Assembly: GCA_017461765.1 (NCBI GenBank)
Contig: JAFTXO010000032.1
Span: 1 to 35,290, forward strand
From: Clostridia bacterium
GTDB taxonomy: Bacteria > Bacillota > Clostridia > Oscillospirales > CAG-272
DNA: 35,290 nucleotides
Reading direction: 5' to 3'
Of this stretch, positions 13,649-28,833 are shown one piece after another. A model generated the notes under the pieces. It saw nothing but the letters and a program-made list of their open reading frames with translations, ran no database searches and was not told where the DNA came from. The stretch's first letter is position 1. Each line of letters starts with the position of its first letter. The position numbers and the translations under genes are program-made.

Positions 13649-14116
13649 GTGGAAAAAAACAGCGTAAAAATAATAGCTCAGAACAAAAAAGCATACCACG
13701 ATTATTTCGTAGTCGAAAAGTATGAAGCGGGCGTTGCCCTTTTCGGTACAGAGGTAAAATCGTTAAGAGCAGGGCTTGTAAATTTGAAGGATTCCTTTTG
13801 TAAGATCTACGGGGGAGAGTTGTTTGCCTTGGGTATACACATAAGCCCGTATGAAAAGGGAAATGTCTTTAATAAAGATCCGCTTCGCGAAAAGAAGCTT
13901 CTTATGCACAAAAAAGAGATAATGCGTTTAAACGGCCATGTCGCCAAGGAAGGATATTCGTTAATACCGCTATCTCTGTATTTTTCAGGCTCGCACGTGA
14001 AAATGGAGCTCGGACTCTGTAAAGGTAAAAAGCTTTACGATAAGCGCGACAGTGATGCTAAAAAGAGCGCACAAAGAACTATTGAAAGAACATTTAAAAG
14101 TTCAACGGAGGATTAA
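13649..14116 (+). CDS. smpB: SsrA-binding protein SmpB
   Basis: A 155-residue RNA-binding protein that binds tmRNA and delivers it to stalled ribosomes in trans-translation. The sequence follows the family throughout: NKKAYHDYFV, then the core GTEVKSLRAGLVNLKDSF, HISPYEKGN, DPLREKKLLMHKKEI and the basic C-terminal tail KGKKLYDKRDSDAKK. The start is GTG 13649 after AAGGAG and GAGGG. It heads a run smpB - acyltransferase - ssrA on the same strand, with no separate promoter seen for ssrA. It must serve whichever tmRNA is functional in this cell (see 15040 and 15996). Confidence 0.97.
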   Translation: MEKNSVKIIAQNKKAYHDYFVVEKYEAGVALFGTEVKSLRAGLVNLKDSFCKIYGGELFALGIHISPYEKGNVFNKDPLREKKLLMHKKEIMRLNGHVAKEGYSLIPLSLYFSGSHVKMELGLCKGKKLYDKRDSDAKKSAQRTIERTFKSSTED

Positions 14117-14118: not shown

Positions 14119-15009
14119 ATGAGAGAATATCTTTTGAATTTAATGGACATACTTAATTATCCCGATGAATCTAAGCCTTCGCTTATCTCGGCATATGATA
14201 AGATCGTTGCAAACGAAGCTTGTGCAAAGCAGTTTGATGAGCTTATAAAAATATACGAGGCTGACTGTAACTGCAATTATGATGCAATACTTAAACAGTG
14301 CGCGGAAATTGCGAAAGAGGTAGGCGTTCACGAGTATGAAGCACAGCTTCTTATCTTTATGTGCTTCACAAAGCATTTGAAGGAGCTCTATAAGGAACAG
14401 GGCTTGAGCGAAAAGATATGGCTCAACAGTATACTTGACTTGAAATATAAGCTTCTTGAATGTAAAGCCGTAAAAGGAATTTGGGGCTCGTTCGTTGCTT
14501 GGTGGTTCCCTGGATTTTTTAATGTTACAAGATTTGCCCTTGGCAGATTGCAGTTTGAAATTTCCGAATTCGGATATGATTACGAGAAAGACGGCAAAAA
14601 GCTTAAAAAAGGCGATAAGGTAATAAATATCCATATACCAAGAACCCTCACTCCTCTTGATAAGGAAAGCTGTGAGGACGCACTTGAACAGGCTAAGGAA
14701 TTCTTTAAGGATAAGCTTGACGGCGCGCCTATGGCGTTTATTTGTTGCTCTTGGCTTCTTTATCCCGAAAACGATAAGATATTTAATCCAAAATCAAATA
14801 CATACAGATATAAATCATACTTCGATATAATAGCGCAGTTCGATGATAAGCCGGAAAATCCTTATTCTGATATGTGGCGTCTTTTCGATATGGACTATAC
14901 AGGCAATGTAGACGATTATCCCGAGGATTCTTCACTCCGCAGAGCATTTAAGCAATACCTTAAAAACGGCGGAAAAACAGGAGAAGGCTACGGCGTATTC
15001 TTTGCATAA
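14119..15009 (+). CDS. GNAT-like acyltransferase domain protein (NAT_N/GNAT_C type)
   Basis: 296 residues, cytosolic. The C-terminal half carries patterns I know from clostridial acyltransferase-domain proteins of the DUF5596/GNAT_C group: ALGRLQFEISEFGY, a GDKVINIHIPR strand, ESCEDALEQAKEFF and FICCSWLLYPENDKIF. The N-terminal half is all-helical, matching the NAT_N partner domain. Substrate unknown. It starts 3 bases after the smpB stop, with GGAGG across the junction, so it is translated with smpB. It ends 30 bases before host ssrA. Why an acyltransferase sits between smpB and ssrA is not evident. Confidence 0.65.
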   Translation: MREYLLNLMDILNYPDESKPSLISAYDKIVANEACAKQFDELIKIYEADCNCNYDAILKQCAEIAKEVGVHEYEAQLLIFMCFTKHLKELYKEQGLSEKIWLNSILDLKYKLLECKAVKGIWGSFVAWWFPGFFNVTRFALGRLQFEISEFGYDYEKDGKKLKKGDKVINIHIPRTLTPLDKESCEDALEQAKEFFKDKLDGAPMAFICCSWLLYPENDKIFNPKSNTYRYKSYFDIIAQFDDKPENPYSDMWRLFDMDYTGNVDDYPEDSSLRRAFKQYLKNGGKTGEGYGVFFA

Positions 15010-15015
15010 TAATAA

Positions 15016-15033
15016 CCGCGGCAAAAGCCGCGG
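15016..15033 (+). other. GC-rich hairpin before host ssrA
   Basis: A perfect 7-bp stem CCGCGGC / GCCGCGG with an AAAA loop and no T-tract, 7 bases before the tmRNA 5' end. It may mark processing of ssrA out of the smpB transcript, or act as a weak attenuator. Confidence 0.5.
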
Positions 15034-15039
15034 AAATAT

Positions 15040-15431
15040 GGGGATGTAAAGGTTTCGACGGGGATTTTGAGATATGATAAGCGTGGCGGGCTGACTAATC
15101 CCGTAATAATGGTCAATTTTAAATAATAAACGACAACAATAAAGTTGCTATGGCTGCCTAACTAATTGCCCTTCAGGGCGATTAGCGGCAGTGCTGTGGC
15201 TATTACGCCACCCGTTCCTCTTGGGAGCACCTCGACCTAAGACTGAGCGTAACACAGAGGTGAACATGAACCGAGAGTTAGCTCTTGTATCGGTCATGCA
15301 TAAAAGAGCTACCTGAGAATAAGCCTGTCTCTCGGCGTTTTCATAAGGAAATTTTAAAAGAGTGACTACCCACGTAGAAGGTTGTATCAACGGATTTTCG
15401 GACGCGAGTTCGATTCTCGCCGAGGACACCA
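15040..15431 (+). ncRNA. ssrA: Host tmRNA gene, disrupted at its 3' end by element insertion
   Basis: The transfer-messenger RNA rescues stalled ribosomes and tags the nascent peptide. The 5' end GGGGATG (15040-15046) is followed by the conserved GTAAAGGTTTCGACGGGG. The tag reads NDNNKVAMAA (15129-15158) with a TAA stop, and pseudoknot-type stems follow. The T-arm is intact: GCGAG 15404-15408, loop TTCGATT, CTCGC 15416-15420. The acceptor strand is wrong. After C15421 come GAGGAC and ACCA, which cannot pair with GGGGATG and lack the U needed for the G3-U alanine identity pair. The matching strand CATCTCC-ACCA is found at 27969-27979, beyond the element. As it stands the gene is predicted non-functional, even though an ACCA happens to lie at the right place. 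Confidence 0.93.
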
Positions 15432-15446
15432 ACTGTACCTACGTCC
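15420..15446. other. attL: left junction of the integrated element (core CC plus one attP arm)
   Basis: Host sequence ends at the core CC (15420-15421). The element arm 15422-15446 is an imperfect inverted repeat of 27943-27967 (18 of 25 positions match), and similarity continues inward to about 15462 with a 1-nt gap. Both arms share GGTACA/TGTACC. The core position is inferred from best symmetry and could be off by a base or two. Confidence 0.75.
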
Positions 15447-15484
15447 CGAATGCTTAAAGACCAGCATTTTAGGGACGATTTTTT
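15442..15484 (+). terminator. Terminator inside the left element end
   Basis: CGTCCCGAATGC pairs with GCATTTTAGGGACG with a small bulge, followed by ATTTTTT. It overlaps the inner part of the att arm and would end transcription coming from the disrupted host ssrA. Confidence 0.75.
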
Positions 15485-15946
15485 CATTTTCGAGGGCTAA
15501 ACTCCTTGAAGTCCAAGCCCAAACGAAAAAACACCTAATTGTCCTATGCAAGTTCCGTTTCAAACGCTATCTTGTTTGGCTTTCAATACCATATCAAATC
15601 CTTGACTTTCAGGGGAGTTATTCTCCCTGCCTTAAATTTCAAGTGGTTTGGATGGGGTGAGCTAACTTGGGTCTCCCCGAAAGGGGTAAACAGATAAAAG
15701 CTTTGTCTGTCTAAATAAAAAAGCGTTCACGGGGGCGGGAGGGATGCCACAAGCCCGTTTTTGCACCGATTAAAAATTCCCGAAATTTTGGGGTTTTCAA
15801 GGGTGCAAACAGATATACTATACCAAAATCTTAAATTAGTGCTTGATTTGCAAGCGTTCTCCTGTGTCCTGTGAAAATCTTGGGGATTTGGGGAAATTTG
15901 ATAAGAGATTTTAAAAATAAAAATTTTGGCATAAAGAAATATGTTA
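15485..15946. other. About 460-bp noncoding stretch between the two tmRNA genes
   Basis: No gene with a ribosome binding site is seen. It holds several hairpins: CAGGGGAG/TCTCCCTG near 15611-15630, CCCCGAAAGGGG near 15675-15686, and TTTGCACC (15760-15767) with GGTGCAAA (15802-15809). It also holds a G-rich repeat unit (15860-15897) matched at 16440-16478. It could contain an unannotated RNA or be a relic. Confidence 0.4.
15860..15897 (+). repeat. G-rich direct repeat flanking ssrA2, left copy
   Basis: The pattern CTGTGTCCT...TTGGGGATTTGGGGAAA is repeated imperfectly at 16440-16478 on the other side of the second tmRNA gene. Confidence 0.5.
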
Positions 15947-15975
15947 TTGACAAAGTGTCAAGAATAATATATAAT
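15947..15975 (+). promoter_or_regulatory. Perfect consensus promoter of the element tmRNA gene
   Basis: TTGACA (15947-15952), exactly 17 nt, TATAAT (15970-15975). The -35 is half of an inverted repeat TTGACA-AAG-TGTCAA (15947-15961), a possible operator. Expected transcription start is about 15982, leaving a short leader to be trimmed before the tmRNA 5' end at 15996. Confidence 0.9.
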
Positions 15976-15995
15976 TGAAACACAAAATCCTATAT

Positions 15996-16388
15996 GGGAC
16001 TGTAAAGGTTTCGACGGGGATTGTGAGATATGATAAGCGTGGAGGGCTGGCTAACCCCTTATAATGGCTAAACTTAAATAATAAACGACAACAATAAAGT
16101 TGCTATGGCTGCCTAACTAATTGCTCCTTCGGGAGCGATTAGCGGCAGTGCTGTGGTCAATGCACCACCCGTTCCTCCAAGGAGTACCTCGCCCTTGGAC
16201 TGAGCGTAACATTAGAGGTGAACTTGAATTGAGAGTCTTGTCTGTATCAATCAAGCATTAAGACAATACCCAAATAAAAGCCTGTTAATCGGCGTTTTGT
16301 AGGGGAAATTCCAATAGATTAACTGCCCACGGAGAAAGTTATGTCAAGTGATTTTCGGACGCGAGTTCGACTCTCGCCAGTTCCACCA
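15996..16388 (+). ncRNA. ssrA: Second, complete tmRNA gene carried by the element
   Basis: It starts with GGGACTG and ends with CAGTTCC-ACCA. The seven acceptor pairs are complete, with G3 opposite U, the alanine identity pair. The 5' domain (GTAAAGGTTTCGACGGGGATT) and T-arm (GCGAG / TTCGACT / CTCGC) match tmRNA. The tag reads NDNNKVAMAA at 16084-16113, identical to the host copy along with about 50 surrounding bases. The rest differs from the host copy at many positions while helices are kept (for example CCTTCAGGG versus TCCTTCGGGA hairpins), so it is a diverged homologue and not a recent duplicate. Own promoter at 15947, own terminator at 16403. It probably provides the only working tmRNA while the element is integrated. 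Confidence 0.95.
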
Positions 16389-16402
16389 TTTCAATGGAAA
16401 AT

Positions 16403-16436
16403 GCACTCTAAGCTGTTTGGCTTAGGGTGCTTTTTT
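16403..16436 (+). terminator. Terminator of the element tmRNA gene
   Basis: An 11-bp stem GCACTCTAAGC / GCTTAGGGTGC with one G-U pair is followed by six T. Confidence 0.9.
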
Positions 16437-16439
16437 CAT

Positions 16440-16478
16440 TCCCTCTGTCCTCAAAAAATTTGGGGATTTTGGGGAAAT
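16440..16478 (+). repeat. G-rich direct repeat flanking ssrA2, right copy
   Basis: The pattern CTCTGTCCT...TTGGGGATTTTGGGGAAA is followed by another GGGG. It is similar to 15860-15897. Several closely spaced GGGG runs could form a G-quadruplex. Confidence 0.5.
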
Positions 16479-16506
16479 GGGGAAAAATAAAAGAAAGGAC
16501 AGATTT

Positions 16507-17010
16507 ATGATTACCAATCTCTATTTTATAATTGATTGTTCAATGAACATCACAGAAAGCGAAAAGCTCAAAATACAAAAAACACTTATCGGCTATAAAA
16601 AAGCATTAAAAGCATTACCCATTAGAACAAAAGCCCATTTCATTGGCTATTCAAACACCGCATTTATCTTAAACCCATATACTATGGAAAGACGGAAAGG
16701 CACACCGAGAATCGAAACCGCATTTAATCTCTTAAATGCAATTATAGGGTTAGACAAAGGAAAAGCAAAAAGCGTGTTTTTGCTCTTTTCGTCAACACAA
16801 CCAACCTATGAATTTTACCAAACAATTAAAGCACTCGAAAGACTTTCAAAGTTCGGGACAGGGCTTCGCTATTCAATAATTCCACCAAAAGCAAAAAATG
16901 ATACTAAAAAGGCACTGTTAAGATTTTGCGAGTACCCCGACCGCCTGCTGTACTATTTCTCCCCGAAACGTCTTCAAGGGCTGGTATCTATGCTTTCTAA
17001 AAGAATATGA
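16507..17010 (+). CDS. Small vWA-like protein encoded next to the element tmRNA
   Basis: A 167-residue protein not assigned to a named family. The N-terminal pattern LYFIIDCSMN (Asp10-x-Ser12-x-Asn14) resembles the metal-binding DxSxS start of von Willebrand factor A domains such as TerY. Later GTPRIETAFNLLNAI (with a Thr in the usual metal position) and SVFLLFSSTQPT (strand before the third motif) follow the same order. The last MIDAS position is Asn instead of Ser, so metal binding may be changed. No signal peptide. ATG 16507 is preferred because AAAGGA lies 8 nt before it; ATG 16477 has no ribosome binding site. The recombinase gene follows 39 bases later, probably in the same transcript. 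Confidence 0.55.
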   Translation: MITNLYFIIDCSMNITESEKLKIQKTLIGYKKALKALPIRTKAHFIGYSNTAFILNPYTMERRKGTPRIETAFNLLNAIIGLDKGKAKSVFLLFSSTQPTYEFYQTIKALERLSKFGTGLRYSIIPPKAKNDTKKALLRFCEYPDRLLYYFSPKRLQGLVSMLSKRI

Positions 17011-17049
17011 TAAAATCTCCTTATCAATAAATGAAAAGGAGATTTTTCT

Positions 17050-17991
17050 ATGAAGTACAAAGAAATCTTAAACAAATGGATGAACGAAAAGCAAATCTAT
17101 ACCTTAAAGCACAGGACATTTCTGCGTTATGAAGAAATCATAAGAACGCAAATTGAGCCTTGTATTGGGGAGTATGAGCTATCAAGCTTAAGCGTTCCCG
17201 TTTTGCGTGAGTTCCAAAGTGATAAATTATCTTGCGGAAACAGCAAAAACGGACACCCCCTCGCCTCAAATACAGTGAAAAACATAATGTCAATCGTGCG
17301 AAATTCGCTAATCTATGCAAAAAGTAATGGCTACATAATACCCGACCTTACAGACCTTGAAAATATCAAATTTTCGGAAAGGAAAATCAATGCTTTTACT
17401 AAGGCAGAACAAAAAAGGATTGAGGACGTGGTTATAAATAGCACAAAAAGCAACCATTTTGGCGTTGTGCTTTGCCTATACACGGGGCTTCGTCTGGGCG
17501 AGCTGTTGGCACTTAAATGGGCTGACATTAGCTTTACCCACGGGACAATAAATGTTGACAAAACCAGTGCCTTTTTGAAAGACACGGACGGAGACTATCG
17601 TTTCTATGTTGACACACCCAAAACGGATTCCTCGGTTCGTACAATTCCGCTTCCAAGGGAGTTAATTCCTTACCTTCGCAAAATGAGAAAAGAAAGCAAA
17701 AGCGATTATGTTATTTGCACAAACAAGGGTACGCAGGTAATAAATCGCTCCTATCAAACGACTTTTGCAAGAATACTCAAAAAGGCAAAGGTAGAATACA
17801 AAAATTTCCACGCATTAAGACATACCTTTGCCACAAGAGCTTTAGAGTGCGGAATGGATATCAAAACTCTTTCGGAAATCTTGGGACATAAATCCCCCAT
17901 AATCACAATGAATCGCTACGTTCACAGCCTTATGGAAACCAAAAGAAAAATGATGAACCACCTTACCAAAAGCCTAAATTTCGGCAATTAA
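17050..17991 (+). CDS. int: Tyrosine recombinase (phage-type integrase)
   Basis: A 313-residue site-specific recombinase with all catalytic residues visible: Arg148 ([11 protein letters not shown]), Lys191 (TPKTDSSVR), His254 and Arg257 (HALRHTFAT), His280 (LGHKS) and the nucleophile Tyr290 (NRYVHS). The N-terminal 110 residues form the SAM-like core-binding domain; no separate arm-binding domain is evident, so it is of the shorter type. AAAAGGAG precedes ATG 17050. It lies shortly downstream of the second tmRNA gene, the usual arrangement for integrases that use ssrA as attachment site, but the present element ends look like serine recombinase sites. It may be a relic of an earlier element, or act on excision or another site. 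Confidence 0.93.
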
Positions 17992-18026
17992 AAAAGTGCA
18001 CCTTTTAATATGACTGGTGCACTTTT
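17992..18026 (+). terminator. Terminator of the tyrosine recombinase gene
   Basis: An 11-bp perfect stem AAAAGTGCACC / GGTGCACTTTT with a T-tract. The GTGCACC...GGTGCAC theme recurs at 18126-18151. Confidence 0.8.
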
Positions 18027-18151
18027 ATATTGACTTGATTATACCATTAGAGGATAAAAAAGTCAATATATTATATAAAAATGCACAAAATAAATATAAA
18101 ATTGGCAAAAACATCGTGAAAAAGGAGCACCTTTCATATTATTTGGTGCAC
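18026..18151 (+). promoter_or_regulatory. Upstream region of the giant lipoprotein gene with inverted repeats
   Basis: A perfect 11-bp inverted repeat, TATATTGACTT (18026-18036) and AAGTCAATATA (18060-18070), encloses 23 bases. Its left arm contains TTGACT (18030-18035), which with GATAAA (18053-18058) 17 nt on could be a weak promoter. Further down, GAGCACC (18126) and GGTGCAC (about 18145-18151) form a second hairpin resembling the terminator at 17992. This looks like a regulated leader; the factor is unknown. Confidence 0.45.
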
Positions 18152-18169
18152 AAATTAGGAGGGCTAAAA

Positions 18170-21100
18170 ATGACTAACTTAAACAAGAAATTTGCATTGC
18201 TAATCTGTCTTGTTTTATCTCTTGTAATGCTATTTGCATTATCTTCTTGCGGAGGCGAAGAGCCACCAGCAAATGACGATAGTCAAAATAGTACACAAAC
18301 AGGAACAAATACCGACACAGGCACAGATTCAAGCACGGACACAAGCACTGATACAAGTGTCGATTCTGGAACGAACGACTCAAACACTGATACAAGTGTT
18401 GATTCTGGCACAACCGACTCCTCAACGGACGATTCACAACAGCCAGACCCCAAGCCAGAGCCAGACCCTGAACCAGAGCCAGACCCCGTCGTTACATATA
18501 CAGTAACATTTGTTCAAGAAGGCTTTGCAAATGTTGTAAAAACAGTAAACGATGGCGAAGCTCTTACCGATATTCCTACCCCTCAAGCAGTACAAGGCTA
18601 TGAAATCAAGTGGGAAGAAAAGGACTTGACCAATATTCAAACAAATATTACTGTCAATGCAGTAAAAACACCTGTTGAATATAATGTTATATATGTACTC
18701 AATGGCGGTACAAACAATGCCCAAAACCCCGATAAATATACTGTTGAACAAGAATTTCCGCTTGTTGACCCAAGCAAGACGGGCTACACCTTTGCAGGCT
18801 GGTATAGCGACAGTGACTTCACTACTGCGGTATCCAATATTGAAATTGGAGAAACGGGAAGCAAAACCTTTTATGCAAAGTGGATGCCAAACGAAAATAC
18901 CCTTGCTTTTAATGCTAATGGCGGAAATGGCTCAATGGAAAATATGAGCATTCCAACATCAAATACAGTAAATCTTAAAGCAAATACCTTTACAAAGGAT
19001 GGCTACACCTTCAAGGGCTGGTCAACCACTTCAAACGGAAGCGTTTCGTATGCCGATGAAGCAAGCTACACAATGGGCACAAATAGCTCATATACTCTCT
19101 ATGCAGTATGGGAAGCTAACCAAAATACCATTGTTTTCAATGCAAATGGTGGCACAGGCACAATGGAAAATATGACTATTGCAACAGATAGTCAAGCAAA
19201 TTTAACCGCAAATTCCTTTGTAAAAGCTGGTTATTCTTTCATTGGTTGGGCAACAACCGAGGACGGAAGCGTTTCGTATACGGATGAAGCAACTTACACA
19301 ATGGGTACTGAAAGCACATATACCCTCTATGCAGTATGGCAAGCAAACGAAAATACTCTTGTATTTAATGCAAATGGCGGTAGCGGAACAATGTCAAATG
19401 TTGTTAGCGTTACCGACAGTACTGTAGCTTTGCCTTCAAATCTGTTTACAAGAGAAAATTATGATTTTATGGGCTGGTCAACCACACAAGACGGAGAGGT
19501 TGAATACCAAGACGGCGATAGCTACATAATGGGAGCAGAGAGCACAAAAACCCTTTATGCCGTATGGGAAGAAAAGAAAAACTCCATTGTTTTCGATTCA
19601 AACGGCGGAACGGGCGAAATGTCCGATTTACGTTTGGCAGAGGGCGAAACTGCAAACCTTCCAGCTAATGCCTTTACAAAAGCAGGCTATAAATTCACAG
19701 GCTGGTCAACATCAAAGGACGGCATAGTGGAGTATAAGGATGAAGCCTCATACACTATGGGCACAAAGAAAACCACTACCTTCTATGCAATGTGGGAAAT
19801 TGAAACCTATAAATTAACATATGACACCCTTGTTTCAAGCAACCCAAGAACATATTCCTTAAACACCTTGCCCATAACGTTGTATCCTGCCGCAACCGAA
19901 GCAGGAAAAGCCTTTGTTGGTTGGTGTACAACAAGCGACTTTAGTGACGAGCCATTTATGCAAATAACCGAGCCAATAGGCACAGTAAAGCTCTATGCAA
20001 AGTTCGTTGACTATACAGAGGGACTTGTATTTACCGATAACGGAGATACCTATTCCGTAACAGACTATACAGGCACAAGTGCTAATATAGTAATTCCCGA
20101 TATAATCGCAGGTAAAAAGGTCACTGTAATAGCAGATAATGTATTTTCAAATTGCACAGGAATTACAAGCATAAAGCTTCCACAATACTTGGTATCAATA
20201 GGCAAAAATGCGTTTAAGGGCTGTACACTGCTTGCAAGCATTGACTTGCCTGAAACAGTAACAACCATTGGAAACGACGCATTTTCAAGCTGTTCTGCAT
20301 TGACAAGCGTAAACTATTTTGGAGATATTGATAGCTGGTGCACAATATCCTTCGGCAATACCAATTCAAACCCATTAAACTATTCCAAAAAGCTACTCTT
20401 AAGTGGCGAAGCAATAAGCGGAAATATTGTTATTTCAGAGGGCATAACTCTAATTCCCGATTACACCTTCTATAACTGCTCACAAATTACAGGTATTGAG
20501 CTTTCAAGCACTGTAACCACAATAGGAACTTCCGCCTTTGACGGTTGTACCTCAATGAGCAGTGTAACCCTTGGCGAAAATGTATCTTCAATTGGATGCT
20601 ACGCATTCCGTAATTGCCCAAAGCTTACTAATGTGAACTATGTGGGAGATATTGAAAGCTGGTGCAACGTTTCGTTTACCAATTCATATTCCAACCCGTT
20701 AAACTATTCTAAAAAGCTATACCTTAACGGACAGGAAATCAGCGGAAAGATTGTTATCCCCGAAACAGTAACACAAATACCTGCTTATACATTCTGCAAC
20801 TGTACAAAAATAACAAGCGTTGTAATTCCAAATAGTATAACAACCCTTGATATGTCTGTGTTCGACGGATGTACAGGCATTAAGGAAGCAACTGTTCCAA
20901 TGGCAGTAATTACAGCGATTCCAAAGGACAATTTACAAACAATTGTAATAAGCAACGGAACAAAAATTCCCGATACCGCATTCGAGGGCTGTATTTCACT
21001 TTCAAGCGTTACAATACCGAATACTGTAACCGAAATAGGAAGCGGTGCATTCTACGGTTGTACCTCAATTGTGAATATAACCATACCGAATAGCGTAAAA

Positions 21101-22465
21101 ACAATAGGCGATTATGCCTTTGAAAACTGCTATTCACTCAAAAGCATAGTGCTCCCCGATAGCGTAACCGCTGTGGGTGAATATGCTTTCTATGACTGTA
21201 GCTCTCTTGAAAGCGTAACCGCTTCAAAAAATCTAACCTCAATAGAAGCAACTGCCTTTGAAGCTTGCACTAATATCAAGGAAGCAACTGCTCCAATGGC
21301 AGTAATTTCGAAAATTCCAAAGAACAAGCTTGAAACAGTTGTTGTAAATGGTGGAACAGAAATTTCATCCTCCGCATTCAAGGACTACAAAGCTCTTAAA
21401 AATGTAACTATTAGCGGTGGAATAACCAAAATAGGTAGCTCTGCATTTTCAGGTTGCTCCTTGCTTTCAAGCGTAACTATTGGAAATACAGTAACCACAG
21501 TAGAAGCAAACGCTTTTGAAAACTGTACCTCTTTGGGGGGCGTTACAGTTCCAAATAGCGTAACTTCAATTGGAAGCTCTGTATTCAAGGGCTGTACGTC
21601 ACTTGCAAATGTAACCCTTGGCAGTGGAGTAAAATCTGTTGGAAGCTATGCTTTCTCTGGCTGTACTGCACTTAAAAACATTACCGTTCCAAATAACGTA
21701 ACTTCAATAGGCGATTATGCCTTTAACTCTTGCACATCTCTTGAAAAAATAACTCTTTCCAAGAATTTAACGTCCGTTAGCAACTCTGCCTTTAATGGCT
21801 GTGCAAGCATAAAGGAAGCAACTATACCAGTAGTGGCAATTTCCGCCCTTCCAAAAACCAAGCTTCAAGCCCTTACAATAAACAGCGGAACAGAAATTCC
21901 TGCTTCTGCATATGAGGGTTGCACATCGCTTAAAAATGTAACAATTGGAGATACTGTAACCTCAATTGGAAACGGAGCTTTTTATGACTGTGCTTCACTC
22001 GAAAGCGTAGCTATCGGAAATAGCGTAATCGAGATAGGTAGCTCTGCCTTTGAAAGCTGTGTATCACTAAAAAACGTATCTCTCGGCAACAAGGTAGCTA
22101 CAATAGGCGAGTATGCCTTCTATGACTGCACGTCACTTGCAAGCATAGACATACCAAGCAGTGTAACGTCTATAAAGGAAAGTGCCTTTGACAGTTGTTC
22201 ATTGCTTGAATATAGCGAGTACGGCAACGCTTATTATCTCGGTAATAGTGAAAAATCATATTTAGCACTAATAAAGGTTAAAAGCGAAAATATTACATCC
22301 TGTGAAATACATAGCGAAACAATGGTTATAGCCGACGATGCCTTCCGTGTTTGCACAACATTAACAAGCTTAACAATTTCAAAGGATATGTTCGAATCGG
22401 GGACGGCTTCAAAAGATACATTGACGGCAACAAGAAAATGCCAAACAAAATGTGCCGATTTGTAA
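18170..22465 (+). CDS. Giant surface lipoprotein with InlB-type and BspA-type leucine-rich repeats
   Basis: A 1431-residue protein. Start ATG 18170 follows AGGAGG by 7 nt and begins a lipoprotein signal peptide ending LFALSSC. Next come a Ser/Thr/Asp linker (from about residue 30) and a Pro-Asp-Glu stretch (about 85-103). About six Listeria-Bacteroides (InlB_B) repeats follow (about 170-615; each has FNANGG, GYTFKGWSTT and TLYAVWE), then a long run of BspA-type LRR_5 repeats (about 625-1405; units like ITSIGDYAFNSCTSLEKI). Such proteins act as adhesins. No sortase signal is seen; the lipid anchors it. The C-terminal end appears frameshifted: the other frame from about 22390 continues to 22494 with a protein-like RIGDGFKRYIDGNKK. 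Likely cargo of the element. Confidence 0.9.
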   Translation: MTNLNKKFALLICLVLSLVMLFALSSCGGEEPPANDDSQNSTQTGTNTDTGTDSSTDTSTDTSVDSGTNDSNTDTSVDSGTTDSSTDDSQQPDPKPEPDPEPEPDPVVTYTVTFVQEGFANVVKTVNDGEALTDIPTPQAVQGYEIKWEEKDLTNIQTNITVNAVKTPVEYNVIYVLNGGTNNAQNPDKYTVEQEFPLVDPSKTGYTFAGWYSDSDFTTAVSNIEIGETGSKTFYAKWMPNENTLAFNANGGNGSMENMSIPTSNTVNLKANTFTKDGYTFKGWSTTSNGSVSYADEASYTMGTNSSYTLYAVWEANQNTIVFNANGGTGTMENMTIATDSQANLTANSFVKAGYSFIGWATTEDGSVSYTDEATYTMGTESTYTLYAVWQANENTLVFNANGGSGTMSNVVSVTDSTVALPSNLFTRENYDFMGWSTTQDGEVEYQDGDSYIMGAESTKTLYAVWEEKKNSIVFDSNGGTGEMSDLRLAEGETANLPANAFTKAGYKFTGWSTSKDGIVEYKDEASYTMGTKKTTTFYAMWEIETYKLTYDTLVSSNPRTYSLNTLPITLYPAATEAGKAFVGWCTTSDFSDEPFMQITEPIGTVKLYAKFVDYTEGLVFTDNGDTYSVTDYTGTSANIVIPDIIAGKKVTVIADNVFSNCTGITSIKLPQYLVSIGKNAFKGCTLLASIDLPETVTTIGNDAFSSCSALTSVNYFGDIDSWCTISFGNTNSNPLNYSKKLLLSGEAISGNIVISEGITLIPDYTFYNCSQITGIELSSTVTTIGTSAFDGCTSMSSVTLGENVSSIGCYAFRNCPKLTNVNYVGDIESWCNVSFTNSYSNPLNYSKKLYLNGQEISGKIVIPETVTQIPAYTFCNCTKITSVVIPNSITTLDMSVFDGCTGIKEATVPMAVITAIPKDNLQTIVISNGTKIPDTAFEGCISLSSVTIPNTVTEIGSGAFYGCTSIVNITIPNSVKTIGDYAFENCYSLKSIVLPDSVTAVGEYAFYDCSSLESVTASKNLTSIEATAFEACTNIKEATAPMAVISKIPKNKLETVVVNGGTEISSSAFKDYKALKNVTISGGITKIGSSAFSGCSLLSSVTIGNTVTTVEANAFENCTSLGGVTVPNSVTSIGSSVFKGCTSLANVTLGSGVKSVGSYAFSGCTALKNITVPNNVTSIGDYAFNSCTSLEKITLSKNLTSVSNSAFNGCASIKEATIPVVAISALPKTKLQALTINSGTEIPASAYEGCTSLKNVTIGDTVTSIGNGAFYDCASLESVAIGNSVIEIGSSAFESCVSLKNVSLGNKVATIGEYAFYDCTSLASIDIPSSVTSIKESAFDSCSLLEYSEYGNAYYLGNSEKSYLALIKVKSENITSCEIHSETMVIADDAFRVCTTLTSLTISKDMFESGTASKDTLTATRKCQTKCADL
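18880..19800 (+). repeat. Tandem InlB-type repeat units (about 225 bp each)
   Basis: Four consecutive units of about 75 codons share strong DNA similarity (AATGCAAATGGCGG..., GGCTGGTCAAC...). They can change in number by recombination. Confidence 0.7.
20100..22390 (+). repeat. Tandem BspA-type LRR units (about 69 bp each)
   Basis: Roughly 23-codon units recur, each with a Gly-Cys-(Thr/Ser)-Ser-Leu turn and an SIG-x-x-AF strand. Some 300-bp super-units repeat as well (for example the GDI-SWC blocks near 20320 and 20640). Confidence 0.7.
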
Positions 22466-22506
22466 GCGAAACAGATGTTCCGCCAGCAAACTAATCTAAC
22501 AATACA

Positions 22507-22530
22507 AAAGAGGGTATGCCCTCTTTTTTT
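22507..22530 (+). terminator. Terminator after the giant lipoprotein gene
   Basis: The stem AAAGAGGG / CCCTCTTT with a TATG loop is followed by TTTT. Confidence 0.88.
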
Positions 22531-22796
22531 GGTAATCAATATATAAAAATCAGCTTCAAAATGAACAAATTGTGAAATTATATGAAAGGTTTGTGAAAAC
22601 TAACTGAAAACTCTTTCAAAATGCCACTAATTCCATTTTTAAATGGTATATAGATAGTAGAGAGTGTAAAGCTCTCAAAATTTAATAACAAAAGGAGGAA
22701 CAATGTTCCAAAAAAATGAGAAAAAACATACTATGGATTATGTCGGCACTAATCATAGTATACCCAATGTCTGCCGACAATTCGAAGTAAGAAAAA
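22531..22796. other. Intergenic stretch before the DUF927 gene
   Basis: It holds small hairpins (CCATTTTTAAATGG near 22633-22646, GAGAGTGTAAAGCTCTC near 22660-22676) and a strong ribosome binding site AAAGGAGG (22691-22698) that serves the short ORF at 22703. No clear promoter seen. Confidence 0.5.
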
Positions 22797-22846
22797 TTGT
22801 TACTTCAATCGAGCAAAACCAGCGGAAACGACTCGCTTTTGGTTGA
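22703..22846 (+). CDS. Small ORF of 47 residues upstream of and overlapping the DUF927 gene
   Basis: It starts with ATG 5 nt after a good AGGAGG, so it is likely translated, but it matches nothing I recognise (basic, starts MFQKNEKKH, ends RKRLAFG). It overlaps the DUF927 frame by 50 bases in another frame. It may be the original N-terminus of the DUF927 protein, separated by a frameshift, or a leader ORF. An alternative ORF at 22716-22790 (MRKNILWIMSALIIVYP...) in the DUF927 frame ends with TAA just before it. Confidence 0.4.
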   Translation: MFQKNEKKHTMDYVGTNHSIPNVCRQFEVRKIVTSIEQNQRKRLAFG

Positions 22847-24446
22847 AGTTCACCGCAACAGTACCGATAGGTATAATTTTTTGTTGCAAACAAAGGATGT
22901 GGTGGGAATAGACTCCCTAACGGCAAAGCTTGTCGCAAATGGGCTAACTCTCGACCACTATATGAAGCACGCTGCTTCTATGTATTTAATGGACGGATAT
23001 CGTATGTGTCAGGTCAATGATTTATACGAATACCGCCACAATTCTCTTGGATGGTTCGATTATCAAGGACGAAAACTGTTCTTGTATGAAGAAACCAAAA
23101 TTGATAGCACTCACATAAGCAAATATGAGAAGCCGTTTAATTTTAAGCGTGGAAGCGAAACGGAATATTTCAAGTTCTTAAAGAATGAGATATTTCCTGT
23201 TCCAACACTGGCTCTTGCCCTTTCGATTGGCTATTCTGCTGTTGTCGCTTCCAAGCTAAAGGACAGTTGCGACATAGGCACAATTATTGTCAATCTCTGC
23301 GGAGCTTCAAGCACAGGCAAAACGACAGCCGAGCAATTATTGGTTAGTCCCTTTGCTTGTCCTGTTATTTCCAACAAATACGGGCTTGTACATACATTCC
23401 ACTCTACAACGAATGCTCTGTTTGAAAGCATAGACGGAATACACGGGCTTCCAATCGTTCTTGACGATATCACAACAAATACGAATATCAATGTTGAAAA
23501 CTTGCTCTACACCATTTCAAGCGGTGAGGAGAAAATGCGTTGCCAGCAGGACGGCACATTAAAGGAGTCAAAGTCGGGTTTTGACGGAGTAGTAGTCATT
23601 TCCAGCGAATACCCCGTCTATGAGCTTGCAAGTGAAAATCAAGGCTTAAAAGCAAGGGTAATTCACACGCAAGGCATAACTTGGACTCCCAGTGCAGAAG
23701 TGGCGGAGCGAATTAAGTCCTTTATCAGCCGAAATTATGGCTACACAGGCATTGATTTTGCCAACTATGTTGCAAGCGTTGATGACCTCGAAGCAAGATA
23801 CGACCAAGCAAAAGCTTCAACACATAAGCTAATGATAAAGCGTGATAACCTATCGGACAGACTCGAAAGCAAATATGCCATTTTCTATTTAACAATAGAA
23901 CTAATGAACGAGTGCTTTTCTCTAAATTTAAAGGTCGAAGAATTGATGCAAATCTTTCTCGAACCCGAACAAAGCGGTATTGATGACCGTGATATTGGTA
24001 AGAAAGCTTTAGATTTGATTAATGATTTCATCATTAAGAAGATAAAGCATTTTAAAATATATAATCACAACCTCGAATATCAAGATTTTAGGGATTCGAC
24101 GGGCGACTATCTCGGTACTATTGTGTATGAGAACGGACGTATGGATGTCTATATTCCTACATCAGAGGTTAAGAAGGTGCTTACAGAAGGAAAAATTCGT
24201 GAAATTACATCCGTTAAGAACAAATGGAAAAATGAAGGTGTTCTTGTCGGGGACAAAGACCGAACAGACTGCAAGCATTTAGGTCGAAGGTGCACTCATT
24301 TCGTGTTCGATAAGAACATAGACACCGATTTTGAAGAAGTAAACAAGGTTATTTGCCGACCAAAAGAGGATTCAACTCCACCCGTTTCAAATTATGAAGT
24401 GGATGATACCGAGGCATTAAACGAGCTTTTCAAGGAGGTTAAATGA
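22797..24446 (+). CDS. DUF927-domain ATPase (phage/plasmid replication helicase-like), possibly 5'-truncated
   Basis: 549 residues. The DUF927 superfamily domain is seen in VEVHRNSTDRYNFLL and the ATPase core: Walker A GASSTGKTT (about 170) and Walker B LPIVLDDI (about 222). A later VVVISSEYP sensor-type stretch and an Arg-rich GLKARVIHTQG complete it. DUF927 proteins are associated with primase/helicase functions of mobile elements and usually carry an N-terminal TOPRIM or primase part, which is absent here. The start is unclear: TTG 22797 has no ribosome binding site, the only strong one serves the ORF at 22703, and the first ATG is well inside the domain. Probably the element's replication or maintenance ATPase, perhaps shortened. 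Confidence 0.75.
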   Translation: MLLQSSKTSGNDSLLVEVHRNSTDRYNFLLQTKDVVGIDSLTAKLVANGLTLDHYMKHAASMYLMDGYRMCQVNDLYEYRHNSLGWFDYQGRKLFLYEETKIDSTHISKYEKPFNFKRGSETEYFKFLKNEIFPVPTLALALSIGYSAVVASKLKDSCDIGTIIVNLCGASSTGKTTAEQLLVSPFACPVISNKYGLVHTFHSTTNALFESIDGIHGLPIVLDDITTNTNINVENLLYTISSGEEKMRCQQDGTLKESKSGFDGVVVISSEYPVYELASENQGLKARVIHTQGITWTPSAEVAERIKSFISRNYGYTGIDFANYVASVDDLEARYDQAKASTHKLMIKRDNLSDRLESKYAIFYLTIELMNECFSLNLKVEELMQIFLEPEQSGIDDRDIGKKALDLINDFIIKKIKHFKIYNHNLEYQDFRDSTGDYLGTIVYENGRMDVYIPTSEVKKVLTEGKIREITSVKNKWKNEGVLVGDKDRTDCKHLGRRCTHFVFDKNIDTDFEEVNKVICRPKEDSTPPVSNYEVDDTEALNELFKEVK

Positions 24447-24610
24447 AATTGCACATAAACCGTGAGAAACTAATTACTACTAAGGGACAGAACTTAAATC
24501 TGTCCTTTAGTGGCTATGAAATATCAGCTGAAGCAAAGCCAAAGCTGGAAAAGGAAATAATCGAAGCTATATTAAATATTTATAAGGAGAATGACAATGA
24601 GAACGCTTGA
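24443..24610 (+). CDS. Small hypothetical protein, 55 residues
   Basis: Its ATG overlaps the DUF927 stop (ATGA) and has AAGGAGG upstream, so it is translationally coupled. The sequence begins MKLHINREKLITTKG and has an acidic C-terminal helix (KLEKEIIEAILNIYKEN). No family recognised. The ATGA-type coupling and the ribosome binding site for the next frame (AAGGAG, 24583-24588) suggest a compact operon with the recombinase that follows. Confidence 0.6.
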   Translation: MKLHINREKLITTKGQNLNLSFSGYEISAEAKPKLEKEIIEAILNIYKENDNENA

Positions 24611-26158
24611 AACCAAAGAAATTGAACACTTAAACAGAATGCTCAAACAAAGAAGCAAGAAAAAGCGGAATTTCTAAATTAAGAACAGTAATTTATGCCC
24701 GTAAGAGTGCCGAGGACGAAAGGCAAACATCTATTGACACTCAAATCAATTCGTGCAAGGCATTCATAGCTCAATATGATTTTTTGGAGCTTGTAGGCAC
24801 ATATTTTGAAGATAATGTCAGCGGAATGTTCACCGAGGGCAGAACACAATATTTAGAAATAATGTCTCTTGCAGAAAAGCAAGCAATTGATGTTATTGTC
24901 GTTATGAAGCTTGATAGATTGGCAAGAGATTTAAGCGACTCTGCCACTACAATCAAGCTTTTGGAAATGTATGGTACATATCTAATAGCAGGTGATGATG
25001 TAGGAAATTCTACGACTCCTGCTGGCGAGTTCCTTCGCAGTATATTGCTTGCACAAGGTCAATTCCACGCAAGACGTGTAGCGAGTGATGTAATGAGTGC
25101 GGAATGTAATAATGCTCGCAAGGGCTTAACATCAGGACGGAGTTGCTCCGTATGGCTTGCAAATTATATGCAAGAAATACGAAATTAACCCAGATGAAGC
25201 TCCAGCAGTAAAGAAAATGTTCGAAATGACAAAAGACGGGTACAGTTATAATCAGATTGCAGACGAGCTTTCAGCTCTTGGCTATACGACACGTGCTGGC
25301 GAAAAGTTCTCCTTTTCAACAATCAATACGATTTTAAAAAATGATAAATATTATGGCACTCTCATATACAACCGTGAGGGTGCTCCCCGAAAGAAAAACA
25401 GGGTTTTGCGTGAGGAATTTGACGAAATACGCAATTCAACCGCAATAGACCCTATAATTTCAAAGGAATTGTTTGATTCAGTTCAAAGTATCTTGGAGCA
25501 CAGAAAAGCTCATTCTACGCCTAAACAAAACGCCAACCCCGAATATTTCTTAACTGGCTATATGTTTTGCAAAGAGTGTGGCAAGCCAATGCACGGAACA
25601 ACCACCAAAAGCGGAAGAAATAAGAATGTCAAGAGATACTATGTTTGCCCTAATCATAAGAAAAGCAAATCTTGCAAAACAAAAGATGTCAATGCAGAAT
25701 ATCTCGAAACCGCTATTAAAGAAGCAATCACATCATTTGTTAATCAATACATAAAGACTGCAAATTTGTCTAAAAAGGCTTTCGAAGCAAGAAAAAATGA
25801 AATTAATGTGGATTTAAAGAAGCTAAGGCACGATTATAACTTGATTGACAAGAAAATCAGCTCGTTTTTTGTGCAAGTGAACGATACCTCAAACTCTCCT
25901 AAGTTGGCTAAACGATACCAAGAGGAAGTCGAAAAACATCTTGATATGCTCGAAACTAAGCAATCAAAAATCGATGAATTAACCGAAAAGCTTGCTTGCC
26001 TGTCCCAACTGGAAGGTGCATTTAATAAGAACAAGCAACCATTAAAGGTAGAGGAGCTTTTCACTACATATAGCAAAGCACGCTTCTTGTGCTCCTTATT
26101 CATTGATAAAATTCTCGTTGATGATAGCAAGAACGATATAGAGATTATATTGAAATAA
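24597..26158 (+). pseudogene. Large serine recombinase broken by two frameshifts
   Basis: Three frames together give one serine recombinase of about 520 residues. The N-terminus starts at ATG 24597 (MRTLETKEIEHLNRML) after AAGGAG and stops at 24677. After a +1 shift in the A-run 24660-24664 the frame continues with KLRTVIYARKSAEDERQTS (catalytic Ser in RKS) and KLDRLARDL up to 25188. A second +1 shift near 25134-25145 leads into VAPYGLQIICKKYEINPDEA and the recombinase and zinc-ribbon domains (CKECGKPMHG ... CPNH) up to 26158. Both shifts need only one base removed to restore the frame. Sequencing error is possible, but two shifts in one gene suggest decay. Confidence 0.88.
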
Positions 26159-26186
26159 CGATTTTTTAATAATATATTATAACATT

Positions 26187-26221
26187 GAGGGAAAGTCTTT
26201 AATTGGGCTTTCTCTCTTTTT
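26187..26221 (+). terminator. Terminator after the broken recombinase
   Basis: GAGGGAAAG (26187-26195) pairs with CTTTCTCTC (26208-26216) with one G-U pair, followed by TTTTT. Confidence 0.7.
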
Positions 26222-26249
26222 ACTTTGTGCCAAAAGAAAGGAGGATTAA

Positions 26250-27836
26250 ATGGCAAAAATAATCGCAGTTGCCTATGCTCGATACAGTTCGGACAGACAA
26301 CAGGAATCAAGTATTACAGTTCAGCTTGCTGCTATTCGTAAATTTTGTCAAGAACACAATATCACTCTAATTCACGAATATGTGGACGAAGCTCAAACGG
26401 GCACTAATGCAAGGCGAAAGCATTTTCAGCAAATGATTGAAGACGCAAAGGAAAGAAAATTCCGTCTTGTCATAGTTCACCGTATGGATAGGTGGGCACG
26501 AAACGTTGATGACGCAAGGCACTACAAAAAGCTTCTTTTAAGCTATGGAATTAAAATGGCAAGTGCTATTGAGGGCTTCAATGAGTCCCCAGAGGGTGAG
26601 TTCTTCGAGCTTATGTCAATGGGAATGGCAGAATTATATTCCAAAAAGCTATCAAGAGAGGCTGTTGCTGGTAAGCTCGCTAATGCAAGAGAGTGTAGAA
26701 TACACGGAGGAGTTCCGCTTTTGGGTTATAAGGTTAAGGGAAAATACTATGTCATTGATGAAAACGATGCAGAAATCGTCAAGATTATTTTTGATATGGT
26801 AGCTAATGGGAGTAGTTATCGGAACATAAAGGAGTATCTTATAAGCAATAACTATGTTCGTTCTAACGGGGAAGGTTTCGAAACACTACATATTCACGAT
26901 TTGCTAATCAACAGAAAATACATAGGCGAGTATGTTTATAACAGGTCGTGCAAAGCAGACAACTTAGGCAGACGAAATCATCATCAAAATAAGGATGAAA
27001 CGGAAATCATACGAATACCCAACGGAATGCCAAGAATAATAGATGATGAAACCTTCTTTAAGGTACAAGAAATATTGAACAGAAGGAAACGATTACCAAA
27101 TTATCGAACAACTAAGAAAGAGAAAAAATATTTGTTTTCTGGTCTTGTAAGGTGTTCTAATTGTGGTAGAGCTATGTCGGGGCTGAAAAGCAAAGGCAGA
27201 AATGCATACAGAACAATATATACTTGTGAATGGTGCGATACAAAAGGTTCAAATACCGAATATTTAGAAAACTATGTCTATTCATTGTTTTGTAGATGTC
27301 TGCTTAGTGAAGATAATATTGAAAGCTTTTGTGAGCTTGTTCGTATAGTATATATGAACACCTATGACAAGCTTACAGAAAAAAAGAATAGCATTAAAAA
27401 AGCAATTCGACAGCTTGACAAAGAAGAATTACAAAAAAGAGTAGATACGGGAGATAAATTGTATGAATATGTAGACGATTATCGAACGGGCTATAATAGG
27501 CAAAGAACTGAAATGGTGTTCGAGCTAAAGGAACTTGAAGAAAAATTAAGTCTATTCCCAAGATTTAGTCATAGCAAAATTAAAAAAGAACGGTTTACCA
27601 TACTCAATACGCTGAAAAGTGGAAATGAGCAAGCAATCAAAAATTTATATACGCAGTTGATTGAGATAATAAATATCAACAATGAGAAAATAGAAATAAC
27701 CTTAAAACTGGAAACTTTCTTAAATTTTTATCTACCAATCAACGCAACCATAATAGAGGACAGGGACAACATAGCATTGCCTAAATTCCATTGCCAACAG
27801 GCACTCGAATTTAGTGAGTTGCGAGTTCGCTTGTAG
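26250..27836 (+). CDS. Large serine recombinase, intact; probable integrase of the element
   Basis: 528 residues. The N-terminal resolvase domain has the catalytic Ser13 in AYARYSSDRQ, and the active-site arginines in VIVHRMDRWARN. The recombinase domain follows (GGVPLLGYKVKGKYY, then AEIVKIIFDMVANGSSYRNI). The zinc ribbon has CSNCGRAMSG and CEWC. A coiled-coil stretch (about 370-450) and a C-terminal tail are present. Length is usual for the TndX/TnpX-like group. Ribosome binding site AAAGGAGG precedes ATG 26250. It lies about 107 bases from the right att arm, the usual place for an integrase acting on the two ends. It is the only intact serine recombinase here, hence the best candidate for insertion at the CC core. 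Confidence 0.93.
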   Translation: MAKIIAVAYARYSSDRQQESSITVQLAAIRKFCQEHNITLIHEYVDEAQTGTNARRKHFQQMIEDAKERKFRLVIVHRMDRWARNVDDARHYKKLLLSYGIKMASAIEGFNESPEGEFFELMSMGMAELYSKKLSREAVAGKLANARECRIHGGVPLLGYKVKGKYYVIDENDAEIVKIIFDMVANGSSYRNIKEYLISNNYVRSNGEGFETLHIHDLLINRKYIGEYVYNRSCKADNLGRRNHHQNKDETEIIRIPNGMPRIIDDETFFKVQEILNRRKRLPNYRTTKKEKKYLFSGLVRCSNCGRAMSGLKSKGRNAYRTIYTCEWCDTKGSNTEYLENYVYSLFCRCLLSEDNIESFCELVRIVYMNTYDKLTEKKNSIKKAIRQLDKEELQKRVDTGDKLYEYVDDYRTGYNRQRTEMVFELKELEEKLSLFPRFSHSKIKKERFTILNTLKSGNEQAIKNLYTQLIEIININNEKIEITLKLETFLNFYLPINATIIEDRDNIALPKFHCQQALEFSELRVRL

Positions 27837-27909
27837 ATTGAATTGGATTACATAGGTTCGTGCTCCCCAACTTCTAAACCACAATCAAAAAGCACCAAAA
27901 GCACCCCCG

Positions 27910-27934
27910 AAAAGCCCATAAATCATAGGCTTTT
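27910..27934 (+). terminator. Terminator-like hairpin after the serine recombinase
   Basis: AAAAGCC / GGCTTTT with an 11-nt loop, 74 bases after the stop codon. Confidence 0.6.
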
Positions 27935-27942
27935 AAGGTTTC

Positions 27943-27969
27943 GGACATAGGTACAATTCGTATCTCACC
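27943..27969. other. attR: right junction of the element (attP arm plus core CC)
   Basis: The arm 27943-27967 matches the reverse complement of 15422-15446 at 18 of 25 positions, with GGTACA as the strongest block. It is followed by core CC (27968-27969) and then host sequence ATCTCCACCA. Confidence 0.75.
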
Positions 27970-27979
27970 ATCTCCACCA
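27969..27979 (+). other. Displaced native 3' end of the host tmRNA gene
   Basis: CATCTCC-ACCA. The seven bases pair perfectly with GGGGATG at 15040-15046, including a G3-U pair, and ACCA supplies the discriminator and CCA end. A terminator hairpin follows directly, as expected for the original gene end. Confidence 0.88.
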
Positions 27980-27980
27980 A

Positions 27981-28017
27981 AAAATCGACAGGTTTCGACA
28001 GAAGCTTGTCGATTTTT
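27981..28017 (+). terminator. Presumed original ssrA terminator
   Basis: AAAATCGACA (27981-27990) pairs with TGTCGATTTT (28007-28016), followed by TACTTTTTC. An inner TCGACA (27995-28000) can pair with the same right arm. The right half is nearly identical to that of the spoVG terminator. Confidence 0.75.
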
Positions 28018-28020
28018 ACT

Positions 28021-28099
28021 TTTTCACTATTACCTCTTCACTTTTCACTCTTCTCTCGAAACTGTCGATTAGGTAATAGATAAAAGTGAATAGTGAAAA
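28021..28099. repeat. Imperfect inverted repeat, MITE-like or intergenic palindrome
   Basis: TTTTCACTATT (28021-28031) pairs with AATAGTGAAAA (28089-28099). CTATTACC (28027-28034) can also pair with GGTAATAG (28072-28079). Confidence 0.55.
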
Positions 28100-28145
28100 G
28101 GTGTTGATGTAGCTTTTCGCAAAGGCGAAAAGCATTTTAATAAAC

Positions 28146-28166
28146 CGCGTCACTTCAACTCCAAAC
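28146..28166 (+). repeat. Dispersed 21-bp intergenic repeat, copy 2
   Basis: It differs from 197-217 at one base and again precedes an A-run and a terminator. Confidence 0.6.
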
Positions 28167-28169
28167 AAA

Positions 28170-28203
28170 AAAGAGCAAATACAAAATCCTGTATTTGCTC
28201 TTT
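28170..28203. terminator. Terminator of the nicotinamidase-like gene (minus strand)
   Basis: A perfect 14-bp stem (28170-28183 with 28190-28203; centre AAATCC). On the minus strand it is followed by a T-run, 42 bases after the stop codon. Confidence 0.85.
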
Positions 28204-28244
28204 CTGCGTATGCTTGACCTATAAAAGAGATTGTTGATTTCTAA

Positions 28245-28790: not shown

Positions 28791-28810
28791 ATTTCAAATC
28801 TCCTTTTAAA

Positions 28811-28832: not shown

Positions 28833-28833
28833 G

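Follow-up and report, generated by a model that had tools for sequence, protein, structure and literature searches.

We describe a 12.5-kb mobile element that lies in ssrA, the gene for transfer-messenger RNA (tmRNA), which rescues stalled ribosomes, of a Clostridia bacterium from the gut; the element itself contains a further, complete tmRNA gene. The DNA analysed (the window, 35,290 nucleotides) is one contig, JAFTXO010000032.1, of a draft genome (GCA_017461765.1; 1.65 Mb, 55 contigs, 81% complete), here called G000; other G numbers denote the genomes compared with it. The element, which encodes two large serine recombinases and a Cch-like helicase, sits at the acceptor stem of ssrA: the acceptor 3' strand of the host gene (tmRNA1) and its terminator are displaced to the far end of the element, and an intact second gene (tmRNA2), with a consensus promoter and a terminator, adjoins the near junction. 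The arrangement recurs in four species, a related genome has the syntenic empty site, and tmRNA2 is conserved more strongly than the spacer in front of it. It is highly probable that the element has inserted at the acceptor end of ssrA, likely inactivating the host tmRNA, with its own complete tmRNA predicted to carry trans-translation for as long as the element stays integrated.

The host tmRNA gene is broken at its acceptor stem

From left to right the locus reads smpB, a GNAT-like gene (14119-15009), tmRNA1 (15040-15431), tmRNA2 (15996-16388), a small gene, a tyrosine recombinase gene, a gene for a BspA-type leucine-rich-repeat (LRR) protein, the Cch-like helicase gene, the two large serine recombinase genes and the right junction (27937-27979). 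tmRNA1 is composite, made of host bases 15040-15421 and ten element bases up to 15431. Body, tag frame and T-arm are all present, and since the element arm happens to contain ACCA, the gene still ends in these bases; the acceptor stem sets 5' GGGGATG against 3' CGAGGAC, with 3 of 7 pairs, G-G at 3-70 and no G3-U70. The covariance-model scan of both loci proposed in the original prediction gave 136.6 bits for tmRNA1 (Rfam), with six acceptor positions flagged as non-pairing, and 155.5 bits for tmRNA2; tmRNA1 was not reported by ARAGORN. The main alanine identity signal is the G3-U70 pair. For E. coli, a G-U wobble pair in the acceptor stem has been noted as important for alanyl-tRNA synthetase, and deletion of U357 in that stem inactivates tmRNA (PMC10107115). 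A further Rfam match, to “permuted tmRNA” at 15370-16116, comprises the 3' part of tmRNA1 and the 5' part of tmRNA2 and was rejected as an artefact of the tandem genes.

At the right junction the strand CATCTCC, followed by ACCA, pairs with the host 5' arm at 7 of 7 positions, as 64 of the 16384 possible 7-mers would. A hairpin terminator (27980-28017) stands directly 3' of this strand, and its counterpart in G019 sits directly behind the CCA of ssrA; the end of ssrA and its terminator have therefore been moved 12.5 kb away. The predicted insertion into ssrA with loss of the acceptor strand is supported. The strand is displaced, not repeated at the far boundary in the window, and the acceptor 3' strand has not been rebuilt in any of the four insertions described below. 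At the crossover, the two junctions share CC in G000 and TC in G026. When the left side of the right element arm (attR) is joined to the right side of the left arm (attL), the result as read from the sequence is TTCGG-ACATAGGTACA ... TGTACCTACGTCCCGAA, an imperfect inverted repeat around the crossover, which would fit the attachment site (attP) of a serine recombinase, as expected.

The claim that the element holds a whole replacement gene also stood: tmRNA2 is recognised by both ARAGORN and Rfam, forms all seven acceptor pairs, has its own promoter and terminator, and encodes a tag of the type usual for the genus. Its promoter is the only plus-strand promoter-like site in 14700-16600; two sites were found against a mean of 4.2 in shuffled sequence, so that only the perfect match is notable. 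The 60 bp preceding tmRNA2 are identical in three of the four elements and agree at 56 of 60 positions in the fourth (93.3-100% between elements).

Recurrence of the insertion and the empty site

In a sample of 29 genomes of the genus, full-length tmRNA genes could be read in 25, as 21 single copies and four pairs. The whole stretch 15422-16470 was matched in four genomes, each of a different species (G000, G004, G012 and G026). Because the same 29-base arm follows the broken tmRNA gene, without a difference, in all four, the junction is not a product of chance. The host 5' arms that face this one element arm differ (GGGGATG, GGGTACG, GGGACCG, GGGACTG). All 21 single copies and all four second copies form 7 of 7 acceptor pairs with G-U at 3-70; the four first copies form 3, 3, 3 and 4 of the seven, with G-G at 3-70. 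An uninserted relative whose ssrA ends in the sequence at 15422-15431 had been named beforehand as a result that would speak against the insertion, and none of the 21 single-copy genes ends in this way. In both insertions seen from two ends the displaced strand fits its own host at 7 of 7 positions (CATCTCC/GGGGATG in G000, CGGTTCC/GGGACCG in G026).

An uninserted relative of the predicted form, GGGGATG...CATCTCC, was found in G021. Its locus has smpB (94% identical), the next gene (85%), an intact ssrA with exactly these arms, and then the right-flank genes of the window, putatively a choloylglycine-hydrolase-like gene (67%), a glycosyltransferase-like gene (91%) and an hgdC-like gene (93%). 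Window positions 27980-29490, with an isochorismatase-like gene and a regulator, had no match at the G021 locus. For G026, a block 5.3-8.6 kb past attR matches (68-70%) sequence lying 2.5-5.7 kb past the intact ssrA of G001 and 3.3-6.6 kb past that of G010.

Beyond the genus, the spacer (15422-15950) was compared with 395 genomes of the family; seven matched, at full length only the four already named, and over 24-42 bases the other three. Among 394 genomes of the order, only three of them from the genus of the window, 319 had a tmRNA match at E <= 1e-35 and four had two: G000, G231, G250 and G377. The last three were rejected as further tandem pairs; in each, the two copies are separated by 648 kb or sit on separate contigs, with paired acceptors. 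G231 has both genes on contig C1, at that distance, with the same score and acceptors and different flanks. In G377 the second gene (contig C13; 1501-1811 of its locus) is a short tmRNA-like gene of 311 nt that ends in ATCA rather than ACCA, the normal gene being on another contig. In G250 (contig C53; 174-664 of its locus) the terminal bases of the second tmRNA are repeated once some 150 bases further downstream, which may mark another insertion at ssrA.

Two further observations concern the genus sample. No tmRNA match above the Rfam cut-off was obtained in G009, G011, G013 or G018, and this despite the completeness of G011 (96%) and G013 (87%), where assembly breaks at ssrA or a real absence may be the reason. 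G019 contains a remnant of the cargo module (4200-9713 of its locus: a fragment of the small gene, the tyrosine recombinase gene and the beginning of the LRR gene) about 0.27 kb behind an intact host ssrA and without tmRNA2; its genome gave no match to recombinase 1 at E <= 1e-20.

Conservation and ancestry of the two tmRNA copies

Between elements, tmRNA2 is 95.2-98.7% identical, the spacer (514-517 bases) 84.3-96.1% and tmRNA1 77.2-89.5%. tmRNA2 has fewer changes than the spacer in all six pairs of elements, with p from 0.02 to 2e-11, the pairs sharing sequences and so not being independent.

A tree of 29 tmRNA bodies, acceptors excluded, places tmRNA1 of G000 with the intact gene of G021 (support 98/99) and tmRNA1 of G004 with the intact gene of G019 (100/97). 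The kinship of G000 and G021 is backed by smpB, which is 94% identical between them, compared with 55-82% at the remaining loci that matched. A topology pairing the two copies of a genome was rejected for G000 (p 0.0005) and G004 (p 0.02), and constraining the second copies to one group was not rejected (p 0.52). From these groupings and constraint tests, it is most likely that the carried tmRNA originated in the genus and moves together with the element. The end branches of the first copies (0.022, 0.065, 0.062 and 0.075, against a median of 0.049 for all rows) show no marked acceleration, which fits a recent or reversible insertion.

Proposed mechanism and alternative explanations

By way of the two-base core, insertion swaps the acceptor strand for the element arm, as can be read directly at the junctions. 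The Ccr-like serine recombinases, which are accompanied by a Cch-like helicase, would catalyse the exchange; with so short a shared core, attP would carry no ssrA 3' end with which to repair it. Alanylation of the host tmRNA would be prevented by its mismatched acceptor and the missing G3-U70 pair, and tmRNA2, from its own promoter and terminator, is predicted to supply tmRNA, host SmpB being present for it. An element lacking a working tmRNA should leave few viable integrants, and selection against cells without trans-translation would thus keep only elements that have one. Precise excision would restore the host gene, because the displaced strand fits exactly, and the element therefore need not be addictive; deletion of tmRNA2 alone from an integrated element would be costly. 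The host is predicted to depend on the element's tmRNA. The idea that the tmRNA2 acceptor guards against renewed insertion was not supported: the ssrA of G004 itself had the same 5' arm (GGGACTG), yet was entered.

Several points weigh against this interpretation. With up to 3 mismatches allowed, no right junction was found in G004 or G012, so two of the four insertions are seen from the left only, and in G021 part of the right-flank block of G026 is inverted. All genomes of the genus are drafts, each in about 10 to 390 contigs. The tree does not place tmRNA1 of G012 and G026 firmly, forcing both copies together was not rejected for G026 (p 0.13) or G012 (p 0.11), and support is weak (57/93) for the grouping of the four second copies apart from the first ones. 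The coding sequence of recombinase 1 does not run in a single frame. Finally, some bacteria rescue ribosomes without tmRNA, and a host may thus tolerate its loss.

Two tmRNA copies 1 kb apart could also stem from a tandem duplication of ssrA in the chromosome followed by decay of one copy, with no replacement by an element, and for G026 and G012 the constraint tests leave room for such an origin. We give it almost no credence: the lost strand lies 12.5 kb away, past recombinase genes, and speaks against duplication for both G000 and G026; the broken ends are identical across four species; G021 has the empty site; and on the tree the broken genes of G000 and G004 join intact ones from other species, pairing within the genome being rejected for both. 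It is extremely unlikely that tmRNA2 is instead the scar of a nested tyrosine-recombinase element. Such a recombinase is encoded 0.7 kb downstream of tmRNA2, and the G019 module starts at bases that come after tmRNA2; the last 27 bases of tmRNA2, however, have no second copy in the window at up to 6 mismatches, and the inverted segment with swapped end repeats in G026 (see below) gives the tyrosine recombinase another likely task.

The remaining alternatives concern function. That the host tmRNA works despite its altered acceptor, the second gene being a spare, would agree with a tmRNA1 that retains tag, body and ACCA end and whose end branches, by inspection, are not markedly accelerated. A little-changed body fits a recent or reversible insertion equally well, however, and with 3-4 of 7 acceptor pairs and no G3-U70 in all four genomes, and a single acceptor-stem deletion sufficient to inactivate the tmRNA of E. 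coli (PMC10107115), we regard a working host gene as very unlikely. Somewhat less improbable, if still clearly unlikely, is that the element's tmRNA is cargo with a purpose of its own, for instance serving the element in transfer or retagging proteins, rather than a replacement. Genes for tmRNA are also found in phages, for instance in Melnitz, for which no integrase was identified (PMC9004378). Here, however, tmRNA2 accompanies a broken host gene in every one of the four cases, its tag is one usual for the genus and the gene adjoins the junction; the remnant in G019, beside an intact ssrA, is without tmRNA2 (one case).

Genes of the element

The features of the locus are collected in Table 1.

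Table 1. Features of the ssrA locus and the inserted element, in window coordinates.
Feature	Position	Strand	Evidence
smpB, host gene upstream of ssrA, encoding the partner protein of tmRNA	13649..14116	+	Pfam SmpB 1.7e-58
Host ssrA (tmRNA1), lacking only its acceptor 3' strand	15040..15421	+	Rfam RF00023 136.6 bits; tree partner is the intact ssrA of G021, support 98/99
Left element arm (attL), in place of the acceptor 3' strand	15422..15450	+	Identical in 4 genomes, fused to host ssrA at the same point
tmRNA2 promoter, TTGACA-17-TATAAT	15947..15975	+	12/12 consensus
tmRNA2, complete element-borne tmRNA gene	15996..16388	+	ARAGORN, tag DNNKVAMAA; Rfam 155.5 bits; 7/7 acceptor pairs, G3-U70
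tmRNA2 intrinsic terminator	16403..16430	+	12-pair stem, then T run
Small protein beside tmRNA2	16477..17010	+	72-80% identical in the other three elements
Tyrosine recombinase, predicted invertase of 18006-18151	17050..17991	+	Pfam Phage_integrase 3.4e-30; 97-98% identical in G004, G019, G026
Predicted promoter switch, opposite orientation in G026	18006..18151	.	14-base inverted repeats at 18007 and 18127
BspA-type leucine-rich-repeat surface protein (cargo)	18017..22465	+	LRR_5 2.4e-167, Listeria-Bacteroides repeat 6e-61, on 18152-22462
Cch-like replicative helicase	22797..24446	+	Pfam DUF927 and HTH_56; NCBIfam SCCmet_Cch1 9.9e-47, under cut-off; PDB 5dgk 1.6e-33
Large serine recombinase 1, three reading frames	24597..26158	+	Domains Resolvase, Recombinase and zinc ribbon, split over two pieces; frame changes shared with G026
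Large serine recombinase 2, CcrB-like	26250..27836	+	Pfam; NCBIfam SCCmet_CcrB 4.4e-30, under cut-off
Right element arm (attR)	27937..27969	+	Same arm in G026, 1 mismatch in 33
Displaced ssrA acceptor 3' strand and ACCA	27969..27979	+	7/7 pairs with 15040-15046
Displaced ssrA terminator	27980..28017	+	17-pair stem; 97% over 38 nt to post-CCA sequence of intact G019 ssrA

The original prediction referred to tyrosine-integrase elements; we correct this, since the integrating enzyme is most likely not of that kind but one of the serine recombinases encoded at the right end, or both. The tyrosine recombinase is more likely an invertase for the promoter of the neighbouring surface-protein gene. Segment 18006-18151, between these two genes, matches G026 on the reverse strand (blastn, 89.7%), and the 14-base repeats at its ends differ slightly from each other, with the variants swapped in G026; it is predicted to be a phase switch of the surface protein.

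The small protein had no match in Pfam or NCBIfam, and a Pfam scan of seven open reading frames of the element found no phage structural domain. A search of viral contigs returned no relative of recombinase 2 and no exact attL arm, phage records gave two short matches, both within the tmRNA part, and plasmid and phage records held only distant recombinase relatives (<60% identity). For recombinase 2, the NCBIfam model XisF (7.1e-31) scored slightly better than CcrB (4.4e-30), both below their cut-offs. In the order sample (E <= 1e-60), 12 relatives of recombinase 2 were found in 11 genomes besides G000, at 32-45% identity. Four of the 12 loci have a tmRNA gene within about 1.5 kb, with paired acceptor arms in every case, and the other eight have none that near, which suggests that ssrA is a common site of the recombinase 2 group and that a broken host gene is not the general outcome. 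Near the relatives in G213, G321 and G333, the stretches searched contained no displaced ssrA 3' fragments, and the adjoining tmRNA is intact. G004 has a second set of Cch-like, recombinase 1-like and recombinase 2-like genes on contig C7 (about 61.6-67.3 kb), 37-51% identical, with no tmRNA in the 20 kb examined; it was rejected as part of the ssrA element and belongs to another, distant one.

The reading frame of recombinase 1 changes by +1 at two CGGA sites, 24666 and 25138, the first within a 26-codon leader frame. Both changes recur at the same positions in G026, with ratios of nonsynonymous to synonymous substitution (dN/dS) of 0.03 and 0.085 in the two pieces; the shared changes and low ratios suggest that recombinase 1 is probably made by frameshifting. 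CGG is a rare codon, used 8 times in about 10,070 codons of 25 window open reading frames. Four other in-frame CGGA in window genes show no shift, so CGGA alone does not force a frame change. A tRNA reading four bases at CGGA was rejected as an explanation, both tRNA-Arg(CCG) of G000 having 7-base anticodon loops. One of these (contig C25; 1501-1577 of its locus) is odd, with 57 bits and a folding no better than that of its shuffles, in a genome whose window genes hardly use CGG. On an unlikely but conceivable reading, the cassette family takes custody of ribosome rescue, and the yield of recombinase 1, whose synthesis seems to call for +1 shifts at two rare CGG codons with possible ribosome pausing there, is tuned by the cassette's tmRNA; if so, the cassette would sense a working tmRNA via stalled ribosomes before moving.

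Relation to known systems and implications

In its Cch-like helicase and its pair of adjacent large serine recombinases, the element resembles the staphylococcal cassette chromosome (SCC, SCCmec). The target of SCC is rlmH, whereas here it is ssrA, and the family scores fall far below those that NCBIfam needs (159.7 of 700 bits for Cch1, 104.8 of 900 for CcrB). To our knowledge, no tmRNA gene occurs in SCC.

The closing statement of the original prediction, that no system of this form had been described, was too strong, for in tRNA-dependent lysogeny the principle is the same and the RNA is a tRNA (Fionnbharth, Gaia and other mycobacteriophages; mBio 2024, PMC10865867). In both, integration into an RNA gene proceeds via a core too short to rebuild the target (here CC/TC), and an entire gene for that kind of RNA comes with the element (here tmRNA, in all four elements). 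That system concerns tRNA genes, phages and tyrosine integrases and was proven by deletion (PMC10865867), whereas here the target is ssrA, the presumed integrases are serine recombinases, no phage genes were recognised and the case is read from sequence. In the available text of that paper, tmRNA is named only as an attB site of phages outside tRNA-dependent lysogeny (PMC10865867).

The Dehalococcoides ssrA islands likewise use a CcrB-like serine recombinase (DsiB) that inserts into ssrA, but in the T-loop, and ssrA together with a 20-bp direct repeat of its 3' end marks the island (PMC3146451); our element inserts in the acceptor stem, does not rebuild the gene and carries a full tmRNA. Islander-type tyrosine-integrase islands share the target class of tRNA and tmRNA genes (tDNAs) and restore the gene from an attP fragment (PMC4383910), whereas all four host copies here are unrestored; according to that source, only tyrosine integrases are known to target tDNAs (PMC4383910). 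As with prophage CP4-57 at the ssrA of E. coli, a mobile element would control whether tmRNA works; there excision breaks ssrA (PMC10107115), whereas here insertion breaks it and the element is predicted to substitute. Phage-borne tmRNA genes were already known (PMC9004378). No element of this form with tmRNA was found in the open-access literature searched, a search outside which most subscription papers and bioRxiv fall. New, as far as these searches show, is the combination, a host tmRNA broken at its acceptor and a whole tmRNA brought by an SCC-like serine-recombinase element, the principle being known for phage tRNAs.

The element extends the strategy of breaking an RNA gene and bringing one's own from phage tRNAs to tmRNA and to serine-recombinase elements, and explains how an integrase can use ssrA without carrying an ssrA 3' end. 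It offers a testable case of a core translation factor controlled by a mobile element. A quality-control RNA of the cell can be part of a mobile element and pass from one species to another, and counting ssrA as a property of the host can mislead.

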